Shown here: positions 1 through 9,483 of the stretch, one piece after another
Position numbering within the stretch: position 1 is the first letter of the stretch
Layout: each line of letters opens with the position of its first letter
Source of the DNA: Pedobacter glucosidilyticus DSM 23534
GTDB lineage: Bacteria; Bacteroidota; Bacteroidia; Sphingobacteriales; Sphingobacteriaceae
Direction of reading: 5' to 3'
Assembly (NCBI RefSeq): GCF_000425145.1
Contig: NZ_AULF01000023.1
Span: 1 to 64,000, forward strand
Length of the DNA: 64,000 nucleotides
The notes under the pieces: model-generated
What the model was told of the DNA's origin: nothing
Database searches by the model: none
Seen by the model: the letters and a program-made list of their open reading frames with translations, nothing else
Made by a program: the position numbers and the translations under genes

Positions 1-1
1 G

Positions 2-451
2 AGCTGCACCAAGAACAAAGCAGGCAGATTGATAGAGCGAACTGAACATGCAGAGGTCATTGAAGCCAATAAACAACGAATCGAGCTTAACAAAGAAATT
101 TACCGGAAGCGGCAGGCAATAGTAGAGCATCCCTTCGGGATCATCAAAAGGCAGTGGGATTTCTATTATATCATGACAAAGAAAACCATTAACCACGCAT
201 CAGCTGATGTAGGGCTTATCTTTACCGCCTTTAACCTGCGAAGGATATTCAATATTATTGATAAAAACCTACTGAAAGAGTACCTCAAAGTACTTGCCTT
301 GATTTTGCTGCTACAGAAGGCTTATTTTAAGCACTTATCAGCAACAATTATTTCTTATAGCATGAAAGCAAAAGTGAAAACTACAGATTTTTTAATGCGC
401 TATAATCGCTTATATTTAACTCCTGATAAGCTCGACTTTAACCTATTTTAG
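2..451 (+). CDS. IS1182-like transposase, C-terminal part (cut by window start)
   Basis: The reading frame is open from base 2, so the gene begins outside the window; an internal TTG at 29 is not a real start. The visible part encodes C-terminal DDE transposase sequence. A CT-x-KAGR-x-IER-x-EH stretch is followed by 'IVEHPFGIIKRQWDFYYIMTK' (shown only in part here as EHPFG and the following Arg/Trp segment), which is typical of the last third of IS1182/IS4-like transposases with their terminal catalytic Glu region. It would cut and join the ends of its own insertion sequence. The stop lies about 18 bp before an attC-like terminus (470). The element's right end therefore probably falls between 452 and 470, although the left end cannot be seen. 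Whether the copy is intact cannot be judged. Confidence 0.72.
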   Translation, partial: SCTKNKAGRLIERTEHAEVIEANKQRIELNKEIYRKRQAIVEHPFGIIKRQWDFYYIMTKKTINHASADVGLIFTAFNLRRIFNIIDKNLLKEYLKVLALILLLQKAYFKHLSATIISYSMKAKVKTTDFLMRYNRLYLTPDKLDFNLF

Positions 452-469
452 GTTTTTAGACGGACTGAT

Positions 470-486
470 GTTATAAGCCATTTAAT
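470..486 (+). repeat. Left terminus (R'-like) of cassette 1
   Basis: GTTATAAGCCATTTAAT is the inverted complement, 15 of 17 positions, of the sequence at 1751-1767 on the other side of the DUF6688-like gene. It begins with a GTT core, as the R' end of an integron cassette does. It sits directly after the IS1182-like gene, which may have replaced the left half of the site. The bases from here to 615 contain no other recognisable feature. Confidence 0.55.
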
Positions 487-614
487 CAGAATGAAGGATA
501 ATCAAAAATCAGCCTGAGTTCTCTATTTTCTCACTCCAATATGTTTATTTGGTTAAATCAAACAAATTAATCAACAATGGTGGAACAGGACGATATGTCT
601 AAATAGATATTTAT

Positions 615-1694
615 ATGATTCTTAGCATTTTAATTTTTATTGGAATAATTTTAAAACTTTTGAATGGAAAGGCAACCTTTATAGAAATCTTACTAATTAT
701 TATTTATATAGTTAGCTCCCTTATATTTTATATTGATTTGACGACCACTCATCATTATCAGTATAATTCACCTATTGTTTATGGAGGAATTAACGGAACA
801 GGTTGTTATAGTCCATTTGCTGAACAACATAGCTTAACATTAACTTGGTTTTTATATGCCTCTTACGCTAGTATGTTGGTGGTATGGGCTTGCAAGAGAT
901 TTATTTCCCCTATTTTATTAACATTGTCGTTAATCTTTATATTAATTGGAATATTAATTAATATTTTCATTTTCTTACAGCTATCACAGCATGATATAGG
1001 GATTTTGAGTTTTTATAATAAAGATCATATCGGTTTATCTCCTATAGATTCACTTTTTGCCATTATAATAGGTCTATTACTTATCTATAAATCAATTACG
1101 CAAGAAGTTAACAAAACTTTTAATCGGCGATATAATAATAAGTTTCTAAATTATCTAAATACTTTTTTGGCTAAAAGAGGAAGAAATCCTATATGGTTAC
1201 TTATATTCAGTGTGCCAGTTTTTTTCATTGTTACACTTATCTTAATTTTATTTGGACAGGAAACAAATTCTATAGTCAAAGTATTTACTGAAACGGCAAC
1301 TTGGAGATTTTCACAACATTCTTTTCCGCATCCAATTCCTGATAATAGCAGTGGGGGACATTACTTATGTACTGTTGCAATAGCGGGAGACCCTAAACTT
1401 GTAAAGCCATTAAGATTGGGAAAGCGACACGGTAAAATCATTGTGGTTAATAGACAATTATTAATTGCAAATGCTTTTGAAGAATTAATACAGGATTTTT
1501 CACCCAAACTTCATTTTATCATTCGAAAAAACTATGATAAATATGGTTTTAATATTTCAAAAAAGATAAATTCCGTATTTTGGTCAAATACTGTTTATCT
1601 CTTAATGAAGCCTTTAGAATGGATTTTTCTAATAACCTTATATTTATTTTGTACTAAACCAGAAGAAAAAATTAATGCTCAATATGCTTTATGA
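615..1694 (+). CDS. Multipass membrane protein, DUF6688-like
   Basis: This is a 359-residue protein with about five to six hydrophobic helices. Most lie in residues 1-180 and around 195-215, and another lies near the C-terminus. Between about residues 225 and 320 there is a hydrophilic domain with the conserved-looking segment 'GGHYLCTVAIAGDPKLVKP' followed by LRLGKRHGK and an ANAFEEL motif. That segment matches my memory of the DUF6688 family, whose function is unknown; no catalytic motif is evident. The gene is a single-gene unit between inverted termini at 470 and 1751. It has no obvious promoter of its own and is very AT-rich, all of which fits a mobile cassette. The ATG at 615 is the first plausible start. 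The family name is from recall and is unverified. Confidence 0.7.
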   Translation: MILSILIFIGIILKLLNGKATFIEILLIIIYIVSSLIFYIDLTTTHHYQYNSPIVYGGINGTGCYSPFAEQHSLTLTWFLYASYASMLVVWACKRFISPILLTLSLIFILIGILINIFIFLQLSQHDIGILSFYNKDHIGLSPIDSLFAIIIGLLLIYKSITQEVNKTFNRRYNNKFLNYLNTFLAKRGRNPIWLLIFSVPVFFIVTLILILFGQETNSIVKVFTETATWRFSQHSFPHPIPDNSSGGHYLCTVAIAGDPKLVKPLRLGKRHGKIIVVNRQLLIANAFEELIQDFSPKLHFIIRKNYDKYGFNISKKINSVFWSNTVYLLMKPLEWIFLITLYLFCTKPEEKINAQYAL

Positions 1695-1750
1695 AAGGGC
1701 TAATAAAAATGAAGAGCGGAATGAAGTTATCGGACTAGGAAAATGGAAAA

Positions 1751-1900
1751 AATAAACGGCTTATAACCACAAATTTGTATTATAATGGTTGAACTACTTT
1801 ACTTTATTTCATCGCAATTAACTAAGTTTATACGGGCAGACAAGTTTTTGCTTTCTAAGCCATTACAACACAAATTCGCCAATCGTTAAGCGATAGCAAA
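1751..1900 (+). repeat. attC-like recombination site between cassettes 1 and 2
   Basis: The site contains an R''-like core GCTTATAAC (1759-1767) and an R'-like core GTTAAGC (1885-1891). Between them is a 19-bp imperfect inverted repeat (1770-1788 against 1860-1878) with 16 of 19 positions complementary. The three mismatches are all of the G/A kind, which allows G-T pairing in folded single strands. The hairpin spans about 130 bp, within the size range of known attC sites. It lies after the DUF6688-like gene and before the lipoprotein gene. The core sequences only partly fit the canonical RYYYAAC/GTTRRRY, so 'attC-like' is an inference. Confidence 0.6.
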
Positions 1901-1927
1901 ACGCAGACTCAAACATCTAAACCAATT

Positions 1928-2584
1928 ATGAGAGAAAAACTAATTTTATTGACAATCATCGGACTATTATTTTCATGCAATCAAAATGAAAATAAAAGCG
2001 TGACTGACCAAGAAGGAGTTAATTCAAAACAACTGAATAACAAAATAATAAGTAAAACTGAACGACAAATAATAATAGAAGAACTACAACGTCTTCAATC
2101 AATTATTGCGTCCAACAACAAGGAAAAAATTTCTGATGTTTTTAGATTCCCTATTAATAACGAGACCATCGGTATTTATGTTGACAACAAAGACTTTAAT
2201 GAACAGCTGGACAAAAACGGTGACAAAGTAACCAAAAACATGTTCATTAGTTTTTATAACGATATTTCTGAGAGTATCCAGACTGAACAAATAAACCAAC
2301 TATTTAAAAAACTAGATATCAACAAACTTTTAAATAAGGACAACTTAGAATATACTGAAAGAATTAAAACAGAGCCCTGCCATCATTTTTATGGTGTGAA
2401 AATAGAAAATAAACTTGTAACTCTTACCATAGGGACAAACTCAAATGTGGACTATAAAAGTAAATCGACTTCTGAAGACGAAATACAAGAAAATGACAGT
2501 TCAATGTGTGAGCATGTAATGTGGTGGGTGTTTACTTTTGACGGAAAGAAACTACTATTTAAAGAAATTACAGGTGCGGGATAA
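1928..2584 (+). CDS. Lipoprotein of unknown function in a cassette
   Basis: A 218-residue protein starts with a short positively charged n-region, a hydrophobic stretch and a lipobox ending LLFSC (Cys17), so it should be lipidated and exported. The mature part is Asn/Lys/Glu-rich and contains a late CEHVMWWVFTFDG segment; I recognise no domain. It resembles small hypothetical lipoproteins often seen in mobile DNA of Bacteroidota. The start codon lies 27 bases after the left terminus (1885-1900) and the stop lies two bases before the right terminus (2587-2602). The gene therefore almost fills its cassette, as in integrons. No promoter is visible between the terminus and the start. Confidence 0.75.
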   Translation: MREKLILLTIIGLLFSCNQNENKSVTDQEGVNSKQLNNKIISKTERQIIIEELQRLQSIIASNNKEKISDVFRFPINNETIGIYVDNKDFNEQLDKNGDKVTKNMFISFYNDISESIQTEQINQLFKKLDINKLLNKDNLEYTERIKTEPCHHFYGVKIENKLVTLTIGTNSNVDYKSKSTSEDEIQENDSSMCEHVMWWVFTFDGKKLLFKEITGAG

Positions 2585-2586
2585 AA

Positions 2587-2602
2587 TTTGCCATCGCTTA
2601 AC
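2587..2602 (+). repeat. Right terminus (R''-like) of cassette 2
   Basis: TTTGCCATCGCTTAAC matches the inverse of GTTAAGCGATAGCAAA at 1885-1900 in 15 of 16 positions. GCTTAAC fits the canonical R'' core RYYYAAC, and GTTAAGC fits the R' core GTTRRRY. The following bases to about 2720 do not contain a clear matching second half, so this site looks interrupted, possibly by the event that brought in the AbiE operon. Confidence 0.55.
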
Positions 2603-2727
2603 ACGGGTAACTGTTGCACAACTCACTAAATAGTTATATAAAATCATTTTATTAAGTAAAGAAGCGTTATTTAAAGCTGATATAAGCGAGGCTCATTTTT
2701 TTTGGTGTTTTATTGTTTGTAAAAAAA

Positions 2728-2811
2728 GCGAGTCTTTAAAAGGCTTATTTTAGTTCAGCTATAAAGGGTTTAAGAAATTAAGTTTGATATGCTGATTTAG
2801 CTTTAGTATAC
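2728..2811 (+). repeat. Direct repeat, copy 1 of 3
   Basis: The stretch from AGCGAGTCTTTAAAAGGCT to the TTTGATATGCTGATTTAGCT segment recurs at 4717-4818 and 5653-5746. This copy is the most diverged, with differences concentrated around 2765-2775. It lies just upstream of the AbiE operator and promoter. Read in one frame, the first bases would encode the peptide end SESLKGLF followed by a stop, as in copy 2, suggesting that the repeat began as the 3' end of a gene plus downstream DNA. Confidence 0.8.
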
Positions 2812-2828
2812 TTTATCAAATTTTAAAA

Positions 2829-2858
2829 TGTCCAGTTTTTTTGCTAATAAACTGGACA
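2829..2858. promoter_or_regulatory. Probable AbiEi operator (10-bp perfect inverted repeat)
   Basis: TGTCCAGTTT (2829-2838) and AAACTGGACA (2849-2858) are perfect inverse complements separated by 10 bases. The second arm ends eight bases before the -7 element of the AbiE promoter. AbiE antitoxins (AbiEi) are known to bind inverted repeats in their own promoter and repress it. The position here fits negative autoregulation; the binding itself is inferred. Confidence 0.65.
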
Positions 2859-2865
2859 AATCAAT

Positions 2866-2873
2866 TATCTTTG
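2866..2873 (+). promoter_or_regulatory. Bacteroidota -7 element for the AbiE operon
   Basis: TATCTTTG matches the TAnnTTTG -7 consensus. A TTTG at 2840-2843, inside the operator loop, may serve as the -33 element although the spacing is slightly long. The antitoxin ATG follows 16 bases later. Confidence 0.6.
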
Positions 2874-2889
2874 TACTACAATAGAGAGA

Positions 2890-3615
2890 ATGAAAATAGC
2901 TGAATACATAGCATTTACCATAGACAGGCTGTCCAAAGGCTATGTGTTCACCTATGCCGATTTTACTACAGAGGTGAGCCAAAAAGAAGCGGTGATAAAA
3001 GCCCTGAACCGTATGGTAGCTTCGGGCAAAATTGCCAAACTATCCAAAGGCAAATACTACAAACCCGAAAACACCCCTTTTGGTAATCTTCAACCCAATC
3101 AGGCACAAGTAGTAAAAGATTTATTGGAAGAAAACGGAAAAATAACAGGTTATCTCACGGGTTATAGCACTTACAATCAGTTGGGCTTAACCACACAAGT
3201 AAGCAATACCATACAAATCGGGAAAAATCAAATTCGCCCCAATTTTAAAAGAGAACGCTATACGATTGCTTTTGTAAAGCAAAAAAATACCATCACCAAA
3301 GAGAATATTCCTTTGTTGCAGCTATTGGATGCCATCCGATACATCAAAAAAATACCTGATGCCAGTATAGAAGCATCCTGCAAACGGTTTTTAGCCATAA
3401 TAAAAAACTTTACAGACAAAGAAACAAATACCTTGGCCCGCTTGGCATTAAAATATCCACCTGCTACAAGAGCTTTACTAGGTGCGTTGCTAGAACAATT
3501 ACAACAGGGCAAAACGGCTGAACCACTTTTTAAATCATTGAATCCCATTAGTAAGTATAAACTAACAGGTGCAGCGAAAGCAATATCCAATACTGAAAAA
3601 TGGAATATTGTATGA
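2890..3615 (+). CDS. abiEi: AbiEi-type antitoxin / transcriptional regulator (DUF6088-like)
   Basis: This is the antitoxin half of an AbiE-type (type IV toxin-antitoxin, abortive infection) system. The N-terminal 60 or so residues form a winged-helix region, including 'AVIKALNRMVASGKIAKLSKGKYY', that should bind DNA. It is followed by the GYLTGYSTYNQLGL and IRPNF segments common in AbiEi/DUF6088 proteins. It is 241 residues long, within the usual range. Its stop codon overlaps the toxin ATG by four bases (ATGA), so the two are translationally coupled. An inverted-repeat operator and a TAnnTTTG promoter lie directly upstream, indicating autoregulation. Antitoxins of this type counteract the toxin without forming a stable protein complex in the systems studied. 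Confidence 0.85.
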   Translation: MKIAEYIAFTIDRLSKGYVFTYADFTTEVSQKEAVIKALNRMVASGKIAKLSKGKYYKPENTPFGNLQPNQAQVVKDLLEENGKITGYLTGYSTYNQLGLTTQVSNTIQIGKNQIRPNFKRERYTIAFVKQKNTITKENIPLLQLLDAIRYIKKIPDASIEASCKRFLAIIKNFTDKETNTLARLALKYPPATRALLGALLEQLQQGKTAEPLFKSLNPISKYKLTGAAKAISNTEKWNIV

Positions 3616-4601
3616 ACCTACACGAGAATACAACCTTATTCAGACAAGCTGTTCAGTTTACGGCTGACCAAATGAAAATACCTACTATTTATGTAGAAAA
3701 AGACTATTGGGTTACCTATGCTTTGTTTACAATTTTCAATAATGATATTGGCAAAGACACTGTGTTTAAGGGCGGAACAGCACTATCCAAGTGTTACCAT
3801 ATGATTGAACGATTTTCGGAAGATATTGACTTGGTAATATTAAGGCGAGAAGGAGAAACAGACAGCAAGTTAAAATCAAAATTAAAAGCAGTAAGCACAG
3901 TTGTAGAAACCGTATTGCCCGAAGTAACTATTGAAGGTATTACCCATAAAATGGGAATGAACCGAAAAACGGCACACGCTTACAACAAAGAATTTAAAGG
4001 TGATTACGAACAAGTAAGAGATGTGATAGTATTGGAATCAACATGGTTGGGATACTACGAACCATATACTACCAAAAGCATTGTTTCATTTGTTGGTCAA
4101 ATGATGTTGGATAATAAGCAGTCTGATATTGCAAAAGTAAATGGGCTGCTTCCTTTTGAGCTATTGGCATTAGAACCCATAAGAACCATTTGTGAAAAGA
4201 TAATGAGTTTGGTTCGCTTTTCTTATGGAGAAAATCCGATAGATGATTTAAGGAAAAAGATACGACACACCTACGACTTACACCAATTACTCAAACAAGA
4301 AGAATTTGTAAGTTTTTTCCATTCCAAAAACTTTGATGATATGTTGCTAAAGGTTGCAAATGATGATGTAGCAAGTTTTAGAAACAATAATAAATGGCTG
4401 AATCATCATCCTAATGAAGCTCTATTTTTTAAAAATCTAGAAGCAGTTTGGAATCAACTTAAATCAATTTATAGCGGTGATTTTAAAAATTTGGTGTATG
4501 GAGAATTACCAAAAGAAGAAGCTGTTTTGGAAACTTTAAAAATGATTGAAGAAAGATTGAAATCTGTTTCTTGGACAATAAAAATTGAAACCAAGGAATA
4601 A
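3612..4601 (+). CDS. abiEii: AbiEii/AbiGii-type nucleotidyltransferase toxin
   Basis: A nucleotidyltransferase-fold toxin of the AbiE system. Members transfer nucleotides to RNA targets (tRNA in studied relatives) and arrest growth, which can abort phage infection. The catalytic signature KGGTALSKCYHMI followed by FSEDIDLVI gives the GG-T and D-x-D metal-binding motif near residue 60-80. A later EPIRTICEKIMSLVRFS segment carries the conserved Lys. I chose the ATG at 3612, which forms the ATGA overlap with the antitoxin stop, over the upstream in-frame ATG at 3600, because MNLHEN is the normal N-terminus of relatives. It appears intact at 329 residues. Confidence 0.88.
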   Translation: MNLHENTTLFRQAVQFTADQMKIPTIYVEKDYWVTYALFTIFNNDIGKDTVFKGGTALSKCYHMIERFSEDIDLVILRREGETDSKLKSKLKAVSTVVETVLPEVTIEGITHKMGMNRKTAHAYNKEFKGDYEQVRDVIVLESTWLGYYEPYTTKSIVSFVGQMMLDNKQSDIAKVNGLLPFELLALEPIRTICEKIMSLVRFSYGENPIDDLRKKIRHTYDLHQLLKQEEFVSFFHSKNFDDMLLKVANDDVASFRNNNKWLNHHPNEALFFKNLEAVWNQLKSIYSGDFKNLVYGELPKEEAVLETLKMIEERLKSVSWTIKIETKE

Positions 4602-4604
4602 AAT

Positions 4605-4740
4605 TTATCAAAGAAAAATTAGAAAAGGCATTTACTGAGTTGTTAAGACAAGAAGGATTTCGCAGGACAGCCAAGGCATTTAGCAGAATATTTACAATTT
4701 TTTGCCGAAACACAAAGCGAGTCTTTAAAAGGCTCATTTT
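4605..4740 (+). pseudogene. Remnant of the 3' end of an unknown gene
   Basis: Directly after AbiEii there is codon-like sequence reading IKEKLEKAFTELLRQEGFR, then, after a one-base frame change, GQPRHLAEYLQFFAETQ and the end SESLKGSF with a TAG stop. The two parts make one plausible helical protein tail, but no start codon, and the frame change indicates decay. The parent gene is not identified. Its last codons overlap direct repeat copy 2, and a shorter piece of the same tail is seen at copy 1. Confidence 0.45.
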
Positions 4741-4818
4741 AGTTCAGATATAAATGTATCAAAAAATTAAGTTTGATATGCTGATTTAGCTTTAATACAT
4801 TCACACTTAGGGTGTGAT
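4717..4818 (+). repeat. Direct repeat, copy 2 of 3
   Basis: From 4725 to 4818 this copy matches copy 3 (5653-5746) at about 90 of 94 positions. It shares the leading AGCGAGTCTTTAAAAGGCT with copy 1. Inside it AATGTAT and ATACATT form the outer arms of an imperfect palindrome around the invariant GTTTGATATGCTGATTTAGC core, and it ends in a short hairpin CACAC-TTAGG-GTGTG. It separates the AbiE operon from the ParE-type toxin-antitoxin module. Confidence 0.82.
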
Positions 4819-4925
4819 ATTTAATTTTAGGACGAGAGAATTTCATCAGTTTTTTCAGATTATAAGCCAAGCTTGTTGATAGTTTTTATACTCCGAAAAC
4901 CCGCCCGAACGCAAAGCCCCAAACC

Positions 4926-4939
4926 GTTGTAAAGCATGG
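4926..4939 (+). repeat. Left terminus (R'-like) of cassette 3
   Basis: GTTGTAAAGCATGG is the inverse complement of CCACGCTTTACAAC at 5525-5538 with one G/A difference. The pair brackets the toxin-antitoxin genes exactly. The stretch 4819-4925 before it is non-coding and contains GC-richer bases (CCCGCCCGAACGC) that could be the inner half of an attC-like hairpin whose other half is lost. Confidence 0.5.
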
Positions 4940-4974
4940 TGGGTACTAATTATCAAACTCTTAATTAAAATTCA

Positions 4975-4982
4975 TAAATTTG
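4975..4982 (+). promoter_or_regulatory. Bacteroidota -7 element for the ParE-type module
   Basis: TAAATTTG matches TAnnTTTG and lies 17 bases before the antitoxin ATG. No clear -33 element is seen. Possession of its own promoter inside the cassette is typical for toxin-antitoxin cassettes in integrons. Confidence 0.5.
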
Positions 4983-4999
4983 TACAAAAGACTAGAATT

Positions 5000-5221
5000 A
5001 TGAATATTCAGGCAGAGAAAATAGAGATAATGAAGTTGATTTTGGAAACTGATAATCCAGACATTCTGGAATCAATAAAAACACTTTTTAATCGAAATAA
5101 AACCTTGGATTTTTGGGGAACTCTTTCTCAAGACCAAAAGAATGATATCTTGCAAGGTATCGATGAAATAGAAAATGGTGAAATTGTAGATTACGAGGAT
5201 TTTATGAAGAATCACCGATAA
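5000..5221 (+). CDS. Antitoxin of a ParE/RelE-type toxin-antitoxin pair
   Basis: A 73-residue acidic protein ending in the segment 'LSQDQKNDILQGIDEIENGE', then a short Tyr/Glu/Asp-rich stretch and FMKNHR. This is the usual C-terminal toxin-binding and linker region of small Bacteroidota antitoxins paired with ParE/RelE toxins. It lacks a recognisable ribbon-helix-helix domain at its N-terminus. The stop overlaps the toxin ATG by one base (TAATG), indicating translational coupling. The gene lies inside cassette 3 with its own -7 element. It should neutralise the ParE-type toxin downstream, which is frameshifted here. Confidence 0.7.
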   Translation: MNIQAEKIEIMKLILETDNPDILESIKTLFNRNKTLDFWGTLSQDQKNDILQGIDEIENGEIVDYEDFMKNHR

Positions 5222-5522
5222 TGAGGACTATAAAATTATCTAAGAGGGCTTCCAAAAATCTTGATAAGTTGCTTGAATATCTTGAAAACGAATGGTCCTT
5301 AAAGGTAAAATCAGATTTTTTAAAAAACTTGATAAATCACTAAAACAAATTCAAAAATATCCTGACAGTTGTCAACAAACGGATTTTGTTAAGGGACTTC
5401 ACATGCTTGTAGTTACAAAACAAACTTCTTTATTTTATCGGTTTGATTCTAAGACAATTTCAGTTGTGACTATTTCTGACAATAGAATGAATCCAGAAAA
5501 ACTAAAGGAAGAAACTAAATAA
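5221..5522 (+). pseudogene. ParE/RelE-type toxin, split by a -1 frameshift
   Basis: Translation from the ATG at 5221 begins MRTIKLSKRASKNLDKLLEY and continues through EWSLKVKSDFLKNL, then meets TAA within three codons. The rest of a normal ParE-type toxin (LDKSLKQIQKYPDSC, then FVKGLHMLVV and SLFYRFDSKTISVV) continues in the -1 frame from the CTT after the T6A6C run at about 5315-5328. Restoring one A, or slipping -1 at A-AAA-AAC, yields a full toxin of about 100 residues. A homopolymer deletion, a sequencing error or programmed frameshifting would all explain this. The ATG at 5292 is an artefact of the split frame. Confidence 0.72.
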
Positions 5523-5524
5523 AC

Positions 5525-5587
5525 CACGCTTTACAACACAGTATATAAAATATGCGTGATAGTAGTAAATTCAAGGGTTATAGCCCA
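5525..5587 (+). repeat. Right terminus of cassette 3 and possible attC-like site
   Basis: CCACGCTTTACAAC lies two bases after the toxin stop and is the inverse of the left terminus at 4926. About 40 bases on, GTTATAGCCC (5578-5587) resembles the left terminus GTTATAAGCC of cassette 1 and could be the R' end. From there to about 5632 there is a hairpin-forming stretch (GGTT...TTCAAA / TTTGAA...AACC). The inner stems are weak, so the site assignment is tentative. Confidence 0.4.
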
Positions 5588-5652: not shown

Positions 5653-5746
5653 TTAAAAGGCTCATTTTAGTTCAATTATAAATGTATCAAAAAATTAAGT
5701 TTGATATGCTGATTTAGCTTTAATACATCCAAACTTAGGGTGTGAT
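5653..5746 (+). repeat. Direct repeat, copy 3 of 3
   Basis: Nearly identical to copy 2, with four base differences in 94. The leading gene-tail bases present in copies 1 and 2 are missing; the repeat begins at TTAAAAGGCTCATTTTAG. It marks the right edge of the accessory block. The remaining 87 bases to the P-type ATPase gene contain no feature that I can identify. Confidence 0.82.
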
Positions 5747-9084: not shown

Positions 9085-9242
9085 AATATCAGGTCCATTT
9101 TCCCATAAGTTGTTTCGCAAACTATATGCCATTTATTACAAAGACGAAGTAGTGGTAAAGACAACGTACTGTTTTTGTTTTAAATATATAGGTAACTAAC
9201 ATAATTATAACAAGTAGCTAACACGTACATCACTCGTAAATT

Positions 9243-9297
9243 AACCTGTTATGACCCTGTTAATACCCTGTTACCACCCTGTTAGTACCCTGTTATG
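9243..9297. repeat. Five tandem copies of an 11-bp unit ACCCTGTTAnn
   Basis: Successive units read AACCTGTTATG, ACCCTGTTAAT, ACCCTGTTACC, ACCCTGTTAGT and ACCCTGTTATG. The first eight or nine bases are constant and the last two vary. The 11-bp period places each unit on nearly the same face of the helix. The array lies between tRNA-Ala and the leftward small membrane-protein operon, upstream of the latter. The rest of the 9133-9364 interval contains no gene that I can see. Confidence 0.85.
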
Positions 9298-9402: not shown

Positions 9403-9409
9403 TATAGTG

Positions 9410-9483
9410 TGGAGATTACCGGATTCGAACCGGTCACCTCTTGCCTGCCAGGCAAGCGCTCTAGCCAAATGAGCTAAACCCCC
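9410..9483 (-). tRNA. tRNA-Ala (anticodon GGC)
   Basis: The minus strand folds into a standard cloverleaf of 74 bases. The acceptor stem GGGGGTT pairs with AATCTCC and contains the G3-U70 pair that marks alanine tRNAs. The anticodon arm is CTTGC-CTGGCAG-GCAAG with anticodon GGC, and the T arm contains GGTTCGAATCC. The discriminator base is A and the CCA end is not encoded. It reads alanine codons GCC and GCU. Confidence 0.95.

Follow-up and report, generated by a model that had tools for sequence, protein, structure and literature searches.

The left part of the window (the whole stretch of DNA that was analysed, 64 kb in length) carries three gene cassettes, A, B and C, together with the end of an insertion sequence and an inserted segment (Table 1). 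Cassette A runs from the R' core GTTATAAGCC-A480-TTTA to the R'' core TAAA-C1757-GGCTTATAAC, and cassette B from GTTAAGCGAT-A1895-GCAA to TTGC-C2592-ATCGCTTAAC. The pairs of ends that bound A, B and C are the only three in the window to combine 11/11 terminal complementarity with the A/G signature; a looser criterion (at least nine matches plus A/G) is reached about once per shuffled window. In cassette C the match to ParE_toxin is weak (E 0.025, below the cut-off). The insertion sequence end has a 99.6% identical copy in a congener. The segment between cassettes B and C appears to split the attC of cassette B and would extend as given in Table 1; D1 repeats at 2736 and 4725, with a third at 5653, and the multicopy stretch 2599-2660 flank its AbiEi/AbiEii genes. 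Further along, tandem 11-bp repeats (ACCCTGTTA-type) were seen at 9242-9296, near a tRNA-Ala gene at 9409-9483. No integrase was found near the window's cassettes. Because the only IntI-like recombinase gene found in the source genome sits on another contig (C10), next to an array, the three cassettes are locally a CALIN-like remnant beside an insertion sequence inserted at an attC core.

Table 1. Features assigned in the window, in order of position.
Feature	Position	Strand	Basis
Insertion sequence right end, DDE transposase (ORF 2-451)	1-469	+	Pfam PF13751; ends exactly at core GTTATAAGCC
Cassette A, DUF6688 membrane protein (ORF 615-1694)	470-1767	+	11/11 terminal complementarity, A/G signature; Pfam DUF6688
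attC-like site of cassette A, continuing into cassette B	1753-1899	+	39-site alignment; covariance model R1
Left (L'') arm of inner stem	1769-1788	+	Arm register; A1782 = near-invariant wobble position L15, A1779 = L12
Right (L') arm of inner stem	1860-1879	+	Arm register; wobble partners C1866, C1869
Cassette B, small lipoprotein (ORF 1928-2584)	1885-2602	+	11/11 terminal complementarity, A/G signature
Inserted segment, AbiEi/AbiEii genes and D1 repeats	2603-4865	+	Pfam AbiEii; multicopy segment 2599-2660; D1 repeat
Right half of attC-like site	4866-4925	+	Resembles L066:9151-9285, compared by eye; R' core GTTGTAAAGC next at 4926
Cassette C, toxin-antitoxin-like pair (ORFs 5000-5221, 5292-5522)	4926-5537	+	11/11 terminal complementarity, A/G signature

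At the junction of cassettes A and B, the original prediction had described an attC-like hairpin, with an R''-like sequence, an inner inverted repeat and an R'-like GTTAAGC in attC order. All of these are present in that order: the R'' core GCTTATAAC can be read off the letters at 1759-1767, the R' lies at 1885-1891, and between them the two arms form an imperfect inverted repeat. Its mismatches are A opposite C on the top strand and so G.T on the bottom strand (for example, T1782 opposite G1866), in agreement with the tolerance for G.T that had been proposed. Of 15 positions, 14 pair between the R'' and the core at 470, and the R' pairs with the core ending at 2602, which bears out the claim that they belong to different cassettes. 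Covariance model R1 scores the site at 149.7 bits on the minus strand, the site itself being part of the R1 training set. With a DNA folding model, the bottom strand reached -16.4 kcal/mol (z -2.0; 9 of 200 shuffles equally good) and the top strand -12.1 kcal/mol (z -0.8; 45 of 200). Taken alone, this predicted fold is modestly unusual and weak evidence, with a DNA-level z of only -2; the strong evidence for the element comes from comparison of many sites rather than from the folding of one.

Five copies of the element were found in its own genome. A sequence-similarity search recovered it in 12 of 60 genomes, every one from the window's genus, and model R1, built from 39 sites, located sites in 16 of 18 congeneric genomes, with 66 in one and 42 in another; Pelobium manganitolerans YS-25 is one of the congeners with sites. 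In alignment the element is conserved from TAAC to GTTA, with unrelated flanks, and the sites are arrayed in one direction per array, mostly 0.4-2 kb apart. The start of a cassette, GTTANNNNNN-A-NNNN, is the complement of that cassette's own end, such that the R' of one site pairs with the R'' of the next. Pairing of R' with R'' was 8/8 in 42 of 53 cassettes. Over 15-base ends of these 53 cassettes, the match rates at positions 1 to 10 were 1.00, 1.00, 1.00,.92,.91,.91,.89,.92,.87 and.62, falling to 0.00 at position 11 and returning to.83-.91 at positions 12-15. Position 11 was thus mismatched in 53/53 cassettes, nearly always with A at the start and C at the end, which gives a T.G wobble on the bottom strand only. 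Complementarity of cassette ends amounted to 5.11 of 6, compared to 2.37 +/- 0.16 in shuffled sequence, and the control comparison of R' with R'' within one and the same site showed background only. The GTT/AAC of the cores is invariant and the following A is mostly kept, whereas core positions 5-7 take any of the four bases; the family departs from GTTRRRY/RYYYAAC, as had been noticed for the R'' of the window site.

Of 130 sites from many genera, 111 have inner arms that align in a single register, free of bulges and with the R' side longer by 4 bases. Pairing is nearly complete across L7-L21. The stem has no extrahelical bases on one side, which the original prediction had suggested looking for and of which canonical attC has two. 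Pair L15 is A/C on the top strand and T.G on the bottom strand in 88 of 101 non-redundant sites and in 43 of the 44 outside Pelobium; this wobble is missing from about 13% of sites, and among the 101 no L15 pair wobbles on the top strand. With L5, the first position of the inner arm, taken as pair 1, L15 is pair 11, and the wobble of the outer arm falls at pair 11 too. These counts suggest that the two G.T wobbles occupy two-fold-symmetric places, each with its T on the strand expected from the symmetry. Within Pelobium, covariation was observed at four stem pairs, with the bottom-strand wobble conserved. The bottom strand was the more stable in 43 of 58 other sites (Wilcoxon 1e-5), and the mean z over the 58 sites was -3.0; the fold of the family is better than that of shuffled sequence, as the original prediction required. 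Structure prediction and covariation together point to the bottom strand as the folding strand of the attC. The smallest site seen, a minimal attC at L124:11435-11478, has just 43 nt between its cores and keeps the L15 wobble.

Just before the arrays, in the direction of the cassettes, lie genes for tyrosine recombinases that form a clade and have about 350 residues. None of the 18 congeneric genomes has an IntI at the curated cut-off of TIGR02249; in all 18 the match to this model is broken at about 180-238 and stays under the cut-off. A 484-residue variant with a longer N-terminal part (L054:3037-4491 and L069:11335-12789) is the only IntI-like recombinase found adjoining an array in the window's genome. 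Complete arrays mostly begin 64-118 nt 3' of the recombinase stop codon. In Pelobium the first cassette lies 64-97 nt past the stop codon at six of seven loci, with a complementarity of 13-14/14; at the seventh, the integrase reading frame has an abnormal end. Relatives of the integrase, picked outside Pelobium by protein similarity alone, occur with the same anatomy in Flavobacterium, Chitinophagaceae, Algoriphagus, Saprospiraceae and others. With a single exception, the Pelobium site model has same-strand matches downstream of their genes. In a model-free test for the signature, the regions downstream of the integrases gave 117 forward, 0 reverse, 2 identical and 5 other pairs, compared to 2 forward, 1 reverse, 9 identical and 11 other pairs upstream, and the first cassette was mostly 90-118 nt from the integrase end. 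Inspected by eye, the region between integrase and first cassette shows an arm motif twice in inverted orientation and once more as a direct copy; an AT-rich stretch and GTTA come next, and the motif differs between lineages. We read this region as the attI, where, judging from its position, cassettes would be inserted. One integrase, in Chryseobacterium sp. SNU WT5 (L160), is plasmid-borne; behind it lie cassette-like genes, a transposase of the IS110 family and an oppositely directed group II intron.

By NCBIfam models, the proteins score just below the XerA cut-off and well below the integron-integrase cut-off, and both by sequence and by predicted fold the nearest solved structures are XerA and IntI4. 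The AlphaFold model (pTM 0.49, from an alignment that excluded one plasmid-derived row) has a modest domain arrangement, and we used the order of its hits (IntI4, XerA) rather than the TM scores. Identity to IntI1 is 27.6%, with the catalytic residues and an SP-(F/L)-D C-terminus kept. In all eight aligned proteins, a stretch of 44 residues corresponding to the IntI additional domain is missing relative to IntI1. The IntI1 residues P242, H250 and H251, which have been reported to hold the first extrahelical base (PMC3053210), fall inside this stretch. In a tree with the host XerC/D, the 20 Bacteroidota proteins fell on the same side as two IntI (SH-aLRT 97), and the Bacteroidota rows made up one group (95); the grouping with IntI reflects those two rows and a thin sampling of IntI, to which viral contigs, tried as a source of diverse IntI, added one useful relative.

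A phylum-wide model, R2, found sites in 126 of 247 genomes. These comprised 33 of the 34 genomes with the new integrase and 93 of the 213 without it (Fisher 5e-10); in the window's class, as counted from the listing, the figures were 15/15 and 34/46. Many genomes have sites without an integrase at the threshold used. Congeners share cassettes that stand behind different attC sites, and the identity starts exactly at GTT. A shared unit of about 1 kb, attC included, has its end precisely at ...AAAACGTT; to the left of one copy there is no attC, as would be expected of a solo insertion. At L072:3813-4811, a cassette with its attC occupies a place that has no attC to the left; this may be an attG-like solo insertion. 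Insertion sequences with the conserved ends GTCAAACTGTCTAAAAACC ... GGTTTTTAGACAGTTTGAC lie exactly at attC cores, at Pelobium and Flavobacterium-type loci (window 1-469; L054:5392, L055:14552, L063, L069, L163, L225), and resemble known attC-targeting elements. Among the products encoded in cassettes are a Cass2-type protein, MerT/ArsR and restriction-type nucleases; the Cass2-type protein (L066:13917-14402) belongs to PF14526, a family known from integron cassettes.

The element in the window is very probably the attC recombination site of a gene cassette, within an integron-like system of the Bacteroidota whose recombination we infer. If these were instead ordinary attC sites of a canonical integron or CALIN, with a standard IntI supplied from elsewhere, the R''/R' core logic would be the same, and IntI genes above the curated cut-off do occur in the wider phylum, in 70 of the 244 genomes sampled, nearly all of them outside the window's class. 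However, such genes are absent from the 18 congeneric genomes and number one in the class sample. A better control than a class 1 array, which held too few cassettes, came from canonical IntI loci within the phylum: 20 of them yielded 16 canonical cassettes, whose cores are 7 bp long and which lack the signature at position 11. Essentially no R2 sites occur at these IntI loci, and the genome of the lone exception carries the new integrase too. We consider this explanation unlikely. Movement of the modules by the host XerC/XerD at dif-like sites appears slightly more improbable still: the recombinase is related to Xer and the genus has XerC/D, but the distance between the first cassettes and an integrase of a separate clade is nearly constant, 33 of the 34 genomes with that integrase have sites, and the sites are hairpins of about 150 nt with 15-bp arms rather than 28-bp dif-like sites.

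A conserved hairpin between genes, oriented as the genes are, could also be a structured non-coding RNA or a terminator-like intergenic element, and homologues in the form of an untranslated RNA had been named as one outcome that would overturn the original prediction. Rfam gave no match at the element, a tRNA being its sole result, the wobbles favour the antisense (bottom) strand, and the pairing between cassette ends reaches across whole genes, something that would follow from no RNA model; we regard an RNA as highly improbable. The same very low probability is assigned to a MITE or REP-like dispersed repeat without cassette function, with which the multicopy, dispersed occurrence in the genome would agree, but not the shared unit of gene plus site with GTT boundaries or the arrays that start at a recombinase gene.

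The favoured attC reading combines parts that are visible in the sequence with a proposed mechanism. Visible are a dedicated XerA/IntI-related tyrosine recombinase encoded in the cassette direction, an attI with repeated arms between its stop codon and the first cassette, and arrayed cassettes that each start with GTT, usually carry one gene and have their own attC at the end. In the mechanism, the bottom strand of attC, once single-stranded, would fold into a hairpin. Its R arm of 15 bp would be whole in the excised circle alone; next would come an asymmetric internal loop, with the R' side exceeding the other by 4 nt, and then an L arm of roughly 20 bp. Each arm would be bound by one of two recombinase monomers, and the G.T at pair 11 of each arm would mark the correct strand, replacing the extrahelical bases and the IntI additional domain. 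Cleavage at the GTT core would then join cassettes to attI or to other attC sites.

In its working and build the system resembles an integron, and we class it as a variant of that kind, but it departs from the canonical integron by three definitions that were tested, since it lacks the IntI domain and the extrahelical bases and does not follow the core consensus. On balance, we lean towards a separate, phylum-wide integron class, whose integrases never had or have lost the additional domain and in which strand choice is made by symmetric G.T wobbles; it may be a sister lineage or an earlier form of integron. The initial observation was real, and understated: a Bacteroidota attC variant with a longer core was supported at the points that could be checked, the 15-bp arm among them, while the non-IntI recombinase, the attI and the full arrays had been overlooked. 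If this reading is true, about half of the sampled phylum genomes (126/247) carry an unrecognised type of cassette site, a large reservoir of mobile genes is opened (toxin-antitoxin-like, restriction-like, mercury transport, Cass2), and two old questions become testable, that of strand choice in integrons and that of their origin from Xer-like recombinases.

In the open-access literature, preprints aside, we found no report of such a Bacteroidota system. Recognition of integrons depends on canonical attC models as well as on the IntI domain. Integron surveys have required the IntI domain (PMC9668308, PMC2426708), and standard searches would probably miss the system because its recombinase is without the domain used to recognise integrons. 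With IntegronFinder 2.0, Bacteroidetes appear as carriers of nothing but integrase-only elements in an earlier survey and of one complete integron (Salinibacter) in a later one (PMC9024848). Smyshlyaev et al. 2021 (PMC8138268) place an integron-like subgroup among the simple tyrosine recombinases; the passages of that paper available to us call the insertion essential for integron function and describe no cassette arrays for members without it.

Canonical integrons, such as class 1 and the sedentary chromosomal integrons of Vibrio, have in common with the new loci a tyrosine recombinase, an attI, same-direction arrays, complementarity of cassette ends, GTT/AAC cores, a bottom-strand hairpin and the IntI-like SP-(F/L)-D C-terminus, and the new sites have the length of Vibrio repeats. 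Compared to canonical IntI, however, the new integrase is without the additional domain and has about 70 extra N-terminal residues, and its gene precedes attI and is read in the direction of the cassettes. Compared to canonical attC, the new sites have an R arm of 15 bp that contains a fixed G.T, they are without extrahelical bases, and their core varies beyond GTTA. A CALIN consists of at least two attC sites, recognised by the standard attC covariance model, with no integrase nearby, and the window cluster is likewise without a nearby integrase; unlike a CALIN, its attC type is found in complete integrase-attI-array loci in congeners and in other genera. In archaeal integrons attI lies immediately downstream of the integrase gene, as it does here, but archaeal IntIs retain the IntI-specific domain (PMC9668308), unlike the new integrase. 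XerA and archaeal Xer (NF040815; 4a8e, 5hxy) have insertion-free core domains and give the best or near-best sequence and fold matches; in contrast to XerA, the new integrase adjoins an attI and cassette arrays and has an IntI-type C-terminus.
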